From assembly GCF_938074695.1 (NCBI RefSeq), contig NZ_CALJEM010000007.1, positions 1 to 64,000 on the forward strand: a stretch of DNA of 64,000 bases. Reading direction: 5' to 3'. Both the position numbers and the translations under genes were made by a program. Positions within the stretch are counted from its first letter, which is position 1. Every line of letters starts with the position of its first letter. The notes beneath the pieces were generated by a model. It was not told where the DNA came from, searched no databases, and saw nothing but the letters and a program-made list of their open reading frames with translations. This document shows, piece by piece, positions 698 through 44,613 of the stretch. This DNA is from an uncultured Thermosynechococcus sp. GTDB lineage: Bacteria > Cyanobacteriota > Cyanobacteriia > Thermosynechococcales > Thermosynechococcaceae.

Positions 698-997
698 ATG
701 ATGCTCCCCCAAGAAATCATCGGCCAAAAAGTCTGGTTAGAAGTGGAACCCGAAGAGGCCTACTATCCAGGTGAGAAAATTCGCGTACAGGCAGAAATTA
801 GCCAGCCCACTGCTCCCCCCTGGTATTATGCTCGCTACATTAATCCGCCGCGCTGGTTCCGTACCCCAGGCCAGTGGCTGACCCACCATGAGGCGGAGAT
901 GGCCGTGCTCTTGAATCCCGTCCTAGAGGATTTGGAGCTGGAGGAAGAGAACTACGACGGTGATGAGTTGACGAATGGGGATGTGAGCGATCGCTAG
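698..997 (+). CDS. Small acidic conserved hypothetical protein (99 aa)
   Basis: I do not recognise the family. The start was set at the first of two tandem ATG codons because AAGGAAG at 684-690 gives a good ribosome binding site seven bases upstream; a longer TTG-initiated reading from 650 lacks one. The protein starts MMLPQEIIGQKVWLEVEPEE, has no signal peptide or membrane segment, contains a WYYARYINPPRWFRTPG aromatic/proline segment near residues 46-62 and ends in a strongly acidic tail rich in Glu and Asp. Composition and codon use match neighbouring cyanobacterial genes. The stop codon sits inside a HIP1 octamer at 987-994. It is followed by the promoter and leader of the rimP operon. 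Confidence 0.75.
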   Translation: MMLPQEIIGQKVWLEVEPEEAYYPGEKIRVQAEISQPTAPPWYYARYINPPRWFRTPGQWLTHHEAEMAVLLNPVLEDLELEEENYDGDELTNGDVSDR

Positions 998-1029: not shown

Positions 1030-1038
1030 TGTTATACT
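1030..1038 (+). promoter_or_regulatory. Extended -10 promoter for the rimP operon
   Basis: TGTTATACT fits the extended -10 pattern TGn-TATAnT. No good -35 hexamer is present at the right distance, as is common for extended -10 promoters. Transcription would start near 1045, giving a leader of about 140 bases before rimP. Confidence 0.5.
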
Positions 1039-1074
1039 AGTCTTCATCAAGAGTGGTGTAGTGACAGCACCCAT

Positions 1075-1126
1075 GAACCTTCCACGGGGAAGGGTTCAGA
1101 ATTCTCCTTCCGTTAGGAAGGGGGGA
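1075..1126 (+). promoter_or_regulatory. Mutually exclusive leader hairpins upstream of rimP
   Basis: Hairpin 1 pairs GAACCTTCC (1075-1083) with GGAAGGGTTC (1088-1097). Hairpin 2 pairs TCCTTCC (1105-1111) with GGAAGG (1116-1121). Because the arms share CCTTCC and GGAAGG, the right arm of hairpin 1 can also pair with the left arm of hairpin 2, and the outer arms can pair with each other. That is the layout of an RNA switch or attenuator. It precedes an intrinsic terminator at 1155-1180. No ligand or protein regulator can be named from sequence. Confidence 0.45.
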
Positions 1127-1154
1127 GTGTCCTTTGTTCAGACTGTTTGGGTGT

Positions 1155-1180
1155 GGTGGGCAATGTCCCGCCTTTTTTAT
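1155..1180 (+). terminator. Intrinsic terminator immediately before rimP
   Basis: GGTGGG (1155-1160) pairs with CCCGCC (1167-1172) around a six-base loop, and TTTTTTAT follows directly. The hairpin ends six bases before the rimP ATG, and no other gene ends here, so it would terminate the rimP operon's own leader transcript unless read through. Confidence 0.6.
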
Positions 1181-1185
1181 TTCCT

Positions 1186-1659
1186 ATGCAGATACAAATG
1201 CTTTTGCCGGTCGTGCAAACTCTGGCGCAGCAGGTTGCCGATCAAGAACGCCTCAACCTAGTTAGTGTGCAGTGGCTGACCCATCAATCGCCACCCATTT
1301 TGCGGGTGGAGGTGCGCCATCCTGAGCAGGACACCAGCCTAGAGGATTGTGAACGACTGAGTCGGGCACTGGAGATGGCCTTGGATGGGCTGCCGGAGTT
1401 GGAGTTTGCCTACGTTCTGGAGGTGTCGAGTCCGGGTCTATCGGATTACCTGAGTAGCGATCGCGACTTTGATGCCTTTCGCGGGTTTCCGGTGCGCGTC
1501 ACCACCACTGCCCCCCATCGGGGCAAAACCCTTTGGGAGGGGAACCTGATTTGCCGCGACGCAGAGAATGTCTATCTCAATCGGCGGGGGCGATCGCTGG
1601 CAATTCCCCGCTCCCTCATTGCCAGTGTCCAGCTATATAGCCCCGGCGGTGAACCCTAG
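1186..1659 (+). CDS. rimP: Ribosome maturation factor RimP
   Basis: A 157-residue RimP protein, the factor needed for late 30S subunit maturation. The two-domain RimP layout is visible: an N-terminal alpha/beta domain with DTSLEDCERLSRALE and YVLEVSSPGLSDYL, then a small SH3-like C-terminal domain from about residue 90. The EVSSPG motif is the family hallmark. I chose ATG 1186 because the longer reading from 1147 runs through the terminator hairpin; there is no clear Shine-Dalgarno, and ATG 1198 is a possible alternative. It is the first gene of rimP-nusA-ylxR, an order conserved in many bacteria, which supports the call. Regulation through the structured leader is inferred. Confidence 0.93.
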   Translation: MQIQMLLPVVQTLAQQVADQERLNLVSVQWLTHQSPPILRVEVRHPEQDTSLEDCERLSRALEMALDGLPELEFAYVLEVSSPGLSDYLSSDRDFDAFRGFPVRVTTTAPHRGKTLWEGNLICRDAENVYLNRRGRSLAIPRSLIASVQLYSPGGEP

Positions 1660-1708: not shown

Positions 1709-2896
1709 ATGACTCTCTATCGCTTACCCGGCCTACGCGCCATGATCAATGAAATTAGCCAAGAGCGAAACTTACCCAAGCACGCAGTGCATCAAGCTCT
1801 CAAAGAAGCCCTACTCAAAGGATACGAACGCTATCGTCGCAGTCTGCGTCCCGATCATGGCCACTTTGAGGAAGATCACTTTGCCAACTTTGAAGTGGAA
1901 CTCGACACCGAGCAAGAGGGCTTCCGCGTGTTGGCCACCAAAACAATCACAGAAACGGTACAGAACCCAGATCGCGAGATTGCCCTTGCCGATGTGATTC
2001 AGGTGGTGCAGGACGCCCGTGTCGGCGATACGGTGCTGTTGGATGTGACCCCTGACCATCAGGAATTTGGCCGCATGGCCGCCATGCAAACCAAGCAAGT
2101 GCTGGCGCAGAAACTGCGAGATCAACAGCGTCGCCTTATCCAGGAGGAATTTAAGGACCTCGAAGGTACGGTACTGGTGGGGCGCGTTCTGCGCTTTGAG
2201 CGGCGATCGGTGATTATGGCCGTGCGCAGCGACGCCAGCCAGCCAGAAGTGGAGGCCGAACTGCCACAACGGGAACAACTTCCCAACGATAACTACCGCG
2301 CCAACTCCACCTTCAAGGTGTATCTCAAGCGCGTCAAAGAGGGGTCGCAACGGGGACCCCAATTGGAGGTTTCCCGCGCCGATGCCGGCTTGGTGGTCTA
2401 TCTCTTTGCGAATGAAGTGCCCGAAATTGAAGATGAGGTGGTGCGAATTGTTGCCATTGCCCGCGAAGCCAATCCCCCGAATCACAAAGTCGGCCCCCGC
2501 ACCAAAATTGCCGTGGATACATTAGAGCGGGATGTGGATCCTGTGGGCGCCTGTATTGGGGCACGGGGATCGCGCATTCAAGCGGTGGTGAATGAACTGC
2601 GGGGCGAAAAAATAGATGTCATTCGCTGGTCGCCGGATCCCGCCACCTACATTGCCAATTCCCTCAGTCCCGCACCGGTGGAAGAGGTGCGGCTCATTAA
2701 CCCCGAAGCGCGTATTGCCCATGTCCTTGTGGCACCGGATAAGGTCTCCCAAGCCATTGGCAAAGAAGGCCAAAATGTGCGCTTGGCAACTCGCCTCACG
2801 GGTTGGAAAATCGAGGTGCGCGACAGCTCCCAATACAACTACGAAGAGGAGGATCGCTTGGCCATGGCCGCCCTCGAAGAACAGATTGCGAGTTAG
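1709..2896 (+). CDS. nusA: Transcription termination/antitermination factor NusA
   Basis: A 395-residue NusA that binds RNA polymerase and nascent RNA to control pausing, termination and antitermination. An N-terminal polymerase-binding domain (about 1-130) with the usual start LxxxINEISQERNLPK-like is followed by an S1 domain (about 150-225) and two KH domains (about 230-380; motifs VGACIGARGSRI and AIGKEGQNVRLA). It lacks the C-terminal acidic repeats of the longer E. coli protein, as is usual outside proteobacteria. It lies 49 bases after rimP and five bases before ylxR, clearly one operon. Confidence 0.97.
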   Translation: MTLYRLPGLRAMINEISQERNLPKHAVHQALKEALLKGYERYRRSLRPDHGHFEEDHFANFEVELDTEQEGFRVLATKTITETVQNPDREIALADVIQVVQDARVGDTVLLDVTPDHQEFGRMAAMQTKQVLAQKLRDQQRRLIQEEFKDLEGTVLVGRVLRFERRSVIMAVRSDASQPEVEAELPQREQLPNDNYRANSTFKVYLKRVKEGSQRGPQLEVSRADAGLVVYLFANEVPEIEDEVVRIVAIAREANPPNHKVGPRTKIAVDTLERDVDPVGACIGARGSRIQAVVNELRGEKIDVIRWSPDPATYIANSLSPAPVEEVRLINPEARIAHVLVAPDKVSQAIGKEGQNVRLATRLTGWKIEVRDSSQYNYEEEDRLAMAALEEQIAS

Positions 2897-2901
2897 TCAA
2901 G

Positions 2902-3165
2902 ATGGCTAATCCCCAACGCCGCTGCGTGGCCTGTGGTCGCTTGGCCGATCGCTCGGAGTTCTGGCGCGTGGTGCGCTGCTGGCCAGATCAAAAGGTGCAG
3001 TTGGATCAGGGAATGGGGCGATCGGCCTACCTATGTCGTACGGCGGACTGTCTCAAGGTGGCCAAACAAAAAAAGCGCTTGGCGCGATCGCTCCGCTGTC
3101 CCATTCCTGAGGAGATTTTTACCACCCTTGCTGCTCGCTTAAATGCCCATCCTGACCATGACTGA
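2902..3165 (+). CDS. ylxR: YlxR family (DUF448) RNA-binding protein
   Basis: A small basic 87-residue protein with the YlxR signature: RRCVACGRLADRSEFWRVVR near the start and GMGRSAYLC before DCLKVAKQKKRLARSLR. YlxR proteins bind RNA and in many bacteria sit between nusA and infB; a role in RNase P or transcript regulation has been proposed. The start at ATG 2902 leaves a five-base gap after nusA. The expected infB does not follow; instead the ylxR stop overlaps the bioA start (ATGACTGA at 3158-3165), suggesting translational coupling. Confidence 0.92.
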   Translation: MANPQRRCVACGRLADRSEFWRVVRCWPDQKVQLDQGMGRSAYLCRTADCLKVAKQKKRLARSLRCPIPEEIFTTLAARLNAHPDHD

Positions 3166-4468
3166 CTCCCCCATTTGGCAACCCTTTACGCAAATGAAAA
3201 CGGCGGATGCGCCCCTGAAGGTGGTGCGTGCCCAAGGAGCCATGCTTGAACTCAGTGATGGTCGGCGGATTATTGATGCCATTTCCAGCTGGTGGGTCAC
3301 GCTCCACGGCCATAGCCATCCTGTTCTGGCGCAAGCCATCTCCGAGCAGGCGCAAACCCTTGAGCATGTCATTTTTGCCGGCTTTACCCATGAGCCGGCG
3401 GAGCAGCTCGCCCACCTCTTGTGCGCCCACACCCCCGCGGGGTTGCAACGGGTCTTCTTCTCCGACAATGGCTCCACCGCCGTGGAAGTGGCTCTAAAAA
3501 TGGCCTACCAGTATTGGCAGCGGCGGGGTCAACCCCAGCGATCGCGCTTTATTGGCTTTGTCGGCGGCTACCATGGCGATACCCTAGGAGCCATGACTGT
3601 GGGCCAAAGTTCCCCGTGGTGGCAACCCTTCCAACCCCTGCTTCCCCCCCTAACCCTGTTGCCCTACCCCGCCACCTATCCAGGGGATCCAGAGGCAGCA
3701 ACCAAGGAGGCACAGGCGATCGCTCAACTGGAGGACACCCTCAAGGCAGACCCAGAGACCTACGCGGCCCTCTTTATTGAACCCTTGGTGCAGGGAGCTG
3801 CGGGCATGCGCATGTGCCGTCCCACCTTTTTGCAAGCAATTTCTGAGATCGCCAAGGCCTACGGAGTGTTAGTGGTCTATGACGAGGTGATGACGGGATT
3901 TGGTCGTACCGGTGCCCTTTTTGCCTGTGAGAAAGCCGGCACGCAACCGGATCTCCTGTGTTTGTCCAAAGGTTTATCGGGAGGCTGCTTGCCCATTGCC
4001 GTGACCTTGGCCACGGAGGAAATTTACCAAGCCTTTTATGATGACGACCCAACGCGCGCCTTTTACCATAGTCATTCCTACACGGGCAACCCCTTGGCCT
4101 GTGCAGCAAGTGTGGCTTCGTTCCGGTTGTTGCTTTCAGAGCCAGAGCGCTACCAAAGTTTAGAAACACGCCATTGGCAGTGTCAGCGGCAGTATCTGGC
4201 CGATGTCAGCAATCTCAAGCACTTTCGTACCTGTGGCACAATTGCAGCCATGGAATTAGAAACCGAGGCCTCCTACTTTAGTGACCTTGTGCCCCGACTG
4301 CGCCGCCGCTTCATTGAATTGGGAGTCCTTCTGCGACCTCTGGGGAATACGCTGTATATTTTGCCCCCCTACTGCATTACCGATGCGGAATTAGCCACGG
4401 TCTATCAAGCCATCCGCCAAGTGGCGATCGAGGTGGCTCAGGGGTGCTTTGCCCCTGTCTCGGCTTGA
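3158..4468 (+). CDS. bioA: Adenosylmethionine-8-amino-7-oxononanoate aminotransferase (BioA)
   Basis: PLP-dependent class III aminotransferase that converts 7-keto-8-aminopelargonic acid to 7,8-diaminopelargonate in biotin synthesis, using S-adenosylmethionine as amino donor. Visible motifs are WQPFTQM at the start, GYHGDTLGAM, YDEVMTGFGRTG and LCLSKGLSGG with the PLP-binding lysine at about residue 271. The length of 436 residues is normal for BioA. I placed the start at ATG 3158, where homologues begin, rather than ATG 3143; either overlaps ylxR. The 3' end overlaps the convergent DUF1823 gene by 31 bases. Its position in the slot often held by infB is unusual. Confidence 0.93.
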   Translation: MTDSPIWQPFTQMKTADAPLKVVRAQGAMLELSDGRRIIDAISSWWVTLHGHSHPVLAQAISEQAQTLEHVIFAGFTHEPAEQLAHLLCAHTPAGLQRVFFSDNGSTAVEVALKMAYQYWQRRGQPQRSRFIGFVGGYHGDTLGAMTVGQSSPWWQPFQPLLPPLTLLPYPATYPGDPEAATKEAQAIAQLEDTLKADPETYAALFIEPLVQGAAGMRMCRPTFLQAISEIAKAYGVLVVYDEVMTGFGRTGALFACEKAGTQPDLLCLSKGLSGGCLPIAVTLATEEIYQAFYDDDPTRAFYHSHSYTGNPLACAASVASFRLLLSEPERYQSLETRHWQCQRQYLADVSNLKHFRTCGTIAAMELETEASYFSDLVPRLRRRFIELGVLLRPLGNTLYILPPYCITDAELATVYQAIRQVAIEVAQGCFAPVSA

Positions 4469-44415: not shown

Positions 44416-44570
44416 AGTTTGGCTGCGACGTTGGTGACTGCCAATATTGTTTTGTGATCTACAACTGCAAAACATTTGGGAATCAACACTGTGGGCGGCA
44501 GTAAACTGGTCTTGGAGCCAGAAACTTCTAAGTCTGCAGTTAGGATTCCCCCCTAGTCTTTACTAGGTCA
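44416..44570 (+). ncRNA. Candidate structured RNA between gyrB and a pseudouridine synthase gene
   Basis: The first bases, AGTTTGGCT (44416-44424), pair with AGCC-AG-AAACT (44516-44526) with a two-base bulge. Inside, ACTGCC (44437-44442) pairs with GGCAGT (44497-44502), and TGTTTTG (44448-44454) with CAAAACA (44468-44474). A large asymmetric bubble separates the outer two stems, giving a long imperfect hairpin somewhat like 6S RNA in outline. CCTAGT-CTTT-ACTAGG (44552-44567) follows but lacks a T-run. It may be a small RNA or the leader of the downstream gene. Confidence 0.4.
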
Positions 44571-44613
44571 TAAACTGAGGTAAAACGGCGTCGCGGTCGA
44601 ACTTTTCCTAACC

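Follow-up and report, generated by a model that had tools for sequence, protein, structure and literature searches.

A cyanobacterial rimP-nusA leader with a conserved intrinsic terminator in Thermosynechococcus: a probable cis-acting transcription attenuator

The window, the whole stretch of 64,000 nucleotides that we analyzed from an uncultured Thermosynechococcus sp. (contig NZ_CALJEM010000007.1, positions 1 to 64,000), carries on its forward strand rimP (1186..1659; 157 aa from the ATG at 1186, with a second in-frame ATG at 1198; Pfam RimP_N and DUF150_C, NCBIfam NF000935), nusA (1709..2896; 395 aa; Pfam and TIGR01953), and the rnpM-like ylxR (2902..3165; Pfam YlxR, with NF047356 below its cut-off). 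The window rimP is 94% identical to the rimP of G023. Next to ylxR follows bioA (3143..4468; TIGR00508) in the place of infB, which in this genome lies on another contig. The infB gene is likewise unlinked in G022, G027, and G018 (on a different contig, or at a distance of more than 0.6 Mb) and is linked to nusA in G050 and G162. That the leader is still at rimP-nusA in Thermosynechococcus, where infB has separated from the operon, suggests rimP and nusA as the control target. Upstream of the leader and outside it lies a co-directional gene (698..997, forward strand) with no Pfam or NCBIfam match, which is present in 11 of 11 genomes of the genus, adjoining rimP in nine and lying far off in G027 and G019. 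The statement in an earlier note on this DNA that no gene ends here is thus not quite right, as this genus-conserved gene ends about 157 nt upstream on the same strand. Far downstream, at 44417-44603 on the forward strand, Rfam places a 6S RNA (84.6 bits).

All the elements that the earlier note had described ahead of rimP-nusA-ylxR, namely an extended -10, two hairpins, and an intrinsic terminator, were located within 1030-1178. The extended -10 element TG-T-TATACT (1030..1038, forward strand; TG 1030-1031, TATACT 1033-1038) has no good -35, and a simple sigma-70 scan of 500-2000 returned 0 promoters, so that the transcription start is placed from the extended -10 and nothing else, about 7 nt after the box. 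The predicted short leader RNA would then be about 134 nt long (1045..1178, forward strand). Folded as a whole, it reaches -50.2 kcal/mol, which 9 of 200 shuffles match (z -1.87), and without the terminator the z-score is only -0.96. The MFE fold shows a short 5' hairpin between the extended -10 and a 7-bp helix, P1 (1067-1073 with 1148-1154, forward strand), which was absent from the earlier note; P1 encloses the forward-strand hairpins H1 (1074..1098) and H2 (1103..1124, also found by pattern scan) and abuts the terminator. The intrinsic terminator (1155..1178, forward strand) has a stem of 1155-1160/1167-1172 with one G-U pair, a 6-nt loop, and U6 at 1173-1178; in the pattern scan it reads GGTGGG-CAATGT-CCCGCC at 1155-1172 followed by TTTTTT at 1173-1178. 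Of 124 counterparts, 99 have a stronger hairpin than this one (-10.1 kcal/mol). Over the 128 kb of both strands of the window, 51 equally loose terminator-like patterns turn up, or roughly one per 2.5 kb, and the locus has 4 terminator-like sites in 1.5 kb vs 1.5 +/- 1.6 in shuffles. The U-tract ends 7 nt, and not six bases as formerly stated, before the rimP ATG at 1186, and the hairpin ends 13 nt from it. An Rfam search near the leader gave no family above its gathering score; at E <= 10, three weak matches appeared in 900-1400, all far below their gathering scores and none to a rimP family.

Nine leaders of the genus align over their full length and make up the genus alignment; those of G027 and G019 were excluded, as only their terminator aligns. 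Across the nine, the -10 box, both P1 strands, and the terminator hardly vary, whereas H1 and H2 drift. The terminator stem and U-tract are invariant in 9/9 leaders, and the extended -10 is likewise unchanged in 9/9. The proportion of cells paired in the 9 sequences is 100% for P1 and for the terminator, 78.9% for H1, and 80% for H2; P1 shows a single one-sided change, H1 has two pairs with one two-sided change each, and H2 has none. Covariation of the MFE structure in the nine leaders (two two-sided changes) did not rise above shuffles, 180 of 500 of which reach it. The earlier note had also proposed that the arms of the two hairpins are interchangeable, with CCTTCC and GGAAGG each used twice. 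The repeats are indeed in the window (CCTTCC at 1078 and 1106; GGAAGG at 1088 and 1116), and most relatives lack these arms in H1. The exchange itself did not hold up, because three of the 12 swapped pairs fail (two in 8/9 leaders, one in 7/9) and the swapped pairing covers 75.9% of cells in the 9 relatives, with no two-sided change.

In the diverged leaders of G027 and G019, only the last 29-31 nt, which correspond to the terminator, are recognizable by Blast, and the fold of these leaders, too, has a branched domain that directly adjoins the terminator. The terminator is still at rimP in both genomes though the gene at 698-997 has moved away, and it therefore belongs to rimP. No leader-like sequence was found after the moved gene in either genome. 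The idea that the upstream part of the leader is left over from the upstream gene was dropped, because no meaningful sequence match was found between it and the DNA that follows the gene at its new place. Judged by sequence, the junction of about 50 nt formed by P1, H1, and H2 is genus-specific. The claim of a leader with its own promoter element and a premature terminator belonging to rimP-nusA-ylxR is supported by these comparisons.

We then compared the DNA before rimP in 159 cyanobacterial genomes (145 of the 146 rimP-matching genomes from a class-wide draw, and 14 family members). A terminator of some form lies upstream of rimP in 135 of the 159 (123 in a narrower search of 200 nt only), and a stem of the GUGGG...CCCAC type with a U-tract precedes rimP in 129, of which 124 agree with GTGGG/CCCAC in at least 8 of 10 letters; the other 5 carry the compensated GTCGG/CCGGC and are all in f9. 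Its distribution follows families: f1 28/28, f5 14/14, f26 13/13, f15 12/13, and f23 12/13 have it, and the 30 genomes where this form is missing include f19 (15/15) and f18 (6/7). The f18 genomes with no rimP terminator within 450 nt are G261, G438, G107, G460, G453, and G430. Stem pairs 1 and 4 are G-C in 129/129 each, and conservation of the U-tract comes close to that of the stem. Such near-fixed stem letters, beyond what pairing needs, suggest recognition by a protein. The conserved part of the leader is the terminator, not the hairpins. In 35 whole genomes picked for having the terminator, the exact motif GTGGG-N3-9-CCCAC-T6 gave 35 matches, 32 at rimP and 3 elsewhere (reversed control pattern: 2 matches). 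At six infB loci, the terminator motif was not found in the roughly 1.5 kb flanking the IF-2 match to either side, a span that perhaps missed the gene start. Among 80 named cyanobacterial nusA loci, 70 could be scored for the nearest upstream gene (6 were without the motif and 4 had short upstream DNA), which is codirectional in 55 and divergent in 15. The tail start lies 8-264 nt, mostly 20-130 nt, before the start of the rimP match. As rimP and nusA are adjacent in every genome having both on one contig, their order does not distinguish RimP from NusA as the sensor.

Upstream of the terminator, a -10-like box is found in 74 of 127 class leaders vs 8.5 expected from shuffles. The distance from this box to the terminator arm has a median of 66 nt in the class and is 117 nt in the window, so the Thermosynechococcus leader is about 50 nt longer. 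Structure scores were confined to the leaders in which a -10 box could be recognized (73 of 124); there, the RNA from box to terminator exceeds shuffles in structure, with a mean z of -2.48 and 63/73 below -1. The covariation that the earlier note proposed to look for, which is not significant within the genus, does appear in Nostoc and relatives, where the 5' hairpin has 7 two-sided cells vs 2.2 shuffled (0/500 reach it; alignment A5, 24 distinct leaders after 4 identical ones of 28 were dropped). In the same group (L094-L140, e.g., L122:2240-2332), about 40 nt leading into the rimP terminator are almost invariant and non-coding, and within this block ACTTC could pair with GAAGT. An antiterminator did not emerge across the class, as the probability that the terminator 5' arm is paired upstream is 0.668 vs 0.619 shuffled and is higher in 75/124 leaders; in the window it is 0.55 vs 0.39 in shuffles. 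A local hairpin overlapping the terminator 5' arm is present in 40/124 leaders vs 17.5 expected, and in the window there is none. The families with such a hairpin are f26, f5, f43, f15, and others, the sequence being TCATTTC-N4-GAAGTGG, or CACTC-AAA-GAGTG in f26. A fixed-offset pairing test for it in the class leaders showed no excess. It is possible that the overlapping hairpin serves as an antiterminator or pause hairpin in some families.

Family f19, which we infer to be picocyanobacteria (small genomes), lacks this terminator. Many of its loci have a different leader, with a GCCTG...CAGGT stem around CCTCC...GGAGG, then a TCGGGC...GUCCGA hairpin, and then rimP, with no U-tract. Examples are L260:80-149 (-), L296:1379-1448 (+), and L288:1766-1837 (-). 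In the alignment A4 of 17 of 19 sequences (L277 and L281 excluded for misalignment), 95.7% of cells pair vs 93.4 shuffled (0/500) and 10 cells are two-sided vs 3.5 shuffled (0/500). Searched against 86 sources, a model of this leader, R1, had 38 matches at E <= 1, a count that includes duplicate loci of one genome and the 17 training sequences; two weak rows, one in L294 and the other in L296 on the opposite strand, lie away from the leader. The survey of this leader took in 77 of 81 genomes (G182, G184, G190, and G128 were left out there), and G517, missed by the regex, has a locus (L302) that matches R1. On whole genomes, R1 matched once in each of 10 of the 16 f19 genomes searched, always before rimP; it had no match in the genome of the window and one weak match (E 0.86) in G050. 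Rfam at E <= 1 returned no match in 10 f19 loci. As this leader has no terminator, control there may act at a step other than transcription termination.

NusA autoregulation by leader attenuation was reportedly described in Bacillus subtilis by Mondal in 2016. According to a review, NusA of B. subtilis exerts feedback through attenuation of its own operon's leader (PMC12288461), and in the account of a study on Synechococcus elongatus, the RNA polymerase stops in vitro at two U-tract terminators, both of which NusA stimulates (PMC13289151). Observed here are the promoter element and a terminator that is conserved and linked to rimP; the NusA feedback and the stimulation of termination by NusA are taken from those other organisms. 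Because of the B. subtilis feedback and the in vitro stimulation of termination by cyanobacterial NusA, autoregulation by NusA is the best reading of the leader, and NusA probably acts on the terminator of the window. We therefore favor, with moderate confidence, a cis-acting transcription attenuator of the rimP-leader type with negative feedback by NusA. Transcription would start constitutively about 7 nt after the extended -10, and RNA polymerase would make the leader of about 134 nt; the moderately strong terminator right before rimP would stop a share of the polymerases, and the remaining ones would read through into rimP-nusA-ylxR. NusA, the product of the second gene, would bind the polymerase, aid the terminator hairpin, and raise the stopped share when plentiful. 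The P1/H1/H2 part, a genus-specific extension, may serve RNA stability, a pause, or a stack under the terminator. Some observations weigh against this feedback by NusA. The terminator form is missing in 30/159 genomes and is hence dispensable; its conservation is silent on the factor that reads it, a role in which RimP or YlxR could serve; a general stimulation by NusA makes any leader terminator NusA-sensitive, with no need of a special site; and the predicted start has an extended -10 in a region where the sigma-70 scan found no promoter.

If the attenuator instead senses RimP or YlxR, or the state of ribosome assembly, at the hairpin, with NusA as only a general termination helper, the stem letters fixed beyond pairing needs would be their binding site, and the grouping of rimP, nusA, and ylxR in the window with rimP first would fit as well; we regard this as rather unlikely, since the published evidence is for NusA, in B. 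subtilis, in the review's account (PMC12288461), and the constant adjacency of rimP and nusA cannot separate the one product from the other. An RNA switch, in which H1/H2 or the P1 junction re-pairs and so frees or blocks the terminator (through arm exchange, a ligand, or temperature), would make use of the twofold CCTTCC/GGAAGG and of P1, paired in 9/9 and abutting the terminator, and G027 and G019 with their branched domains would agree with it. We nevertheless hold it to be improbable, given that the swapped pairing is not conserved in the nine relatives, that 180/500 shuffles reach the covariation of the MFE structure, that upstream pairing of the terminator 5' arm in the class (0.668 vs 0.619, higher in 75/124) hardly exceeds shuffles, and that Blast finds only the terminator in common with G027 and G019.

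Control of translation, with the hairpin mainly covering the ribosome site of rimP, would fit the 7 nt from U-tract to ATG, which leave no room for a Shine-Dalgarno sequence, and the many f19 loci where the structured leader of rimP has no U-tract. It is quite improbable, however, because the tail start in the class is mostly 20-130 nt before the rimP match and because the U-tract, needless for translation control, is nearly as conserved as the stem. There is very little probability that the terminator ends the transcript of the gene at 698-997 and insulates rimP: the same strand, the end about 157 nt upstream, and the codirectional upstream gene in 55/70 loci speak for it, but a promoter element separates that gene from the terminator, G027 and G019 keep the terminator at rimP, and the upstream gene is divergent in 15/70. 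We give just as little credence to the view that the leader is a small RNA gene in its own right, with a terminated product acting in trans; a promoter element and terminator of its own and a structured predicted RNA of about 134 nt would suit such a gene, yet it has no Rfam match, and the only class-conserved part is the terminator, which stays with rimP.

Conceivably, and here we are tentative, the rimP leader of cyanobacteria has two parts, a structured 5' element free in sequence and a near-fixed terminator, which would be read by the NusA (or RimP) protein with no RNA switch. The 5' part would have grown in Thermosynechococcus into a junction flush with the terminator, and f19 would have lost the terminator, with the leader that keeps the GGGC...G(U/C)CC hairpin taking its place in a large part of the family. 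If this is true, the f19 leader, which has no Rfam match, exerts the same feedback at a step other than transcription. Canonical intrinsic termination explains only 22% of the transcription units of S. elongatus (2026 study), and cyanobacteria have no Rho. The terminator of rimP-nusA, nearly unchanged in its letters over most of the class, is a defined site at which the control of termination capacity in Rho-less bacteria can be tested.

The gammaproteobacterial rimP leader, presumably Rfam family RF01770, shares the operon and the position with the leader of the window, which has no second rimP-type terminator or antiterminator. That gammaproteobacterial leader is a tandem terminator/antiterminator in the description of Naville and Gautheret (2010; PMC2965389). 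The rimP-leader as set out in the main text of the same paper, where it is reported for Firmicutes and Gammaproteobacteria and the strings 'cyanobacteri' and 'Synechoc' do not occur, is a GGGc(...)gCCC stem followed by a U-stretch in the 5' UTR of rimP-nusA, with the terminator 4-130 nt from the gene start, no visible antiterminator, and NusA as the proposed regulator (PMC2965389). A cyanobacterial rimP leader was not found in our full-text literature searches, which covered the main texts of openly accessible papers; the literature searched likewise did not yield the class-wide GUGGG...CCCAC form, the structured 5' part, the Thermosynechococcus extension, or the absence of the rimP terminator from f19 and most of f18. 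With B. subtilis, the window shares a terminator that leads a NusA operon, the dependence on NusA being shown in B. subtilis only. The f19 hairpin has the GGGC...G(U/C)CC signature in common with the rimP-leader but lacks the terminator. Like the published rimP-leader, the leader of the window lies in the 5' UTR of a rimP-nusA operon and has GGG in the 5' arm (1158-1160), CCC in the 3' arm (1167-1169), and then U6; its U-tract, 7 nt from the rimP ATG, falls within the published range of 4-130 nt, and the window and the class are likewise without a visible antiterminator. They differ in the longer 5' part of the window and in the letters next to the stem, where the window has GGGC-AAU-GU-CCC, with the c present and the g one base off. 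Cyanobacteria mostly have GUGGGU...GCCCAC as against GGGc...gCCC in the rimP-leader, the first base of the loop being T in 74/124 and C in 33/124 and the last base G in 63/124. The leader of the window thus represents the published rimP-leader attenuator in its cyanobacterial form, and the regulator proposed here is the published one.
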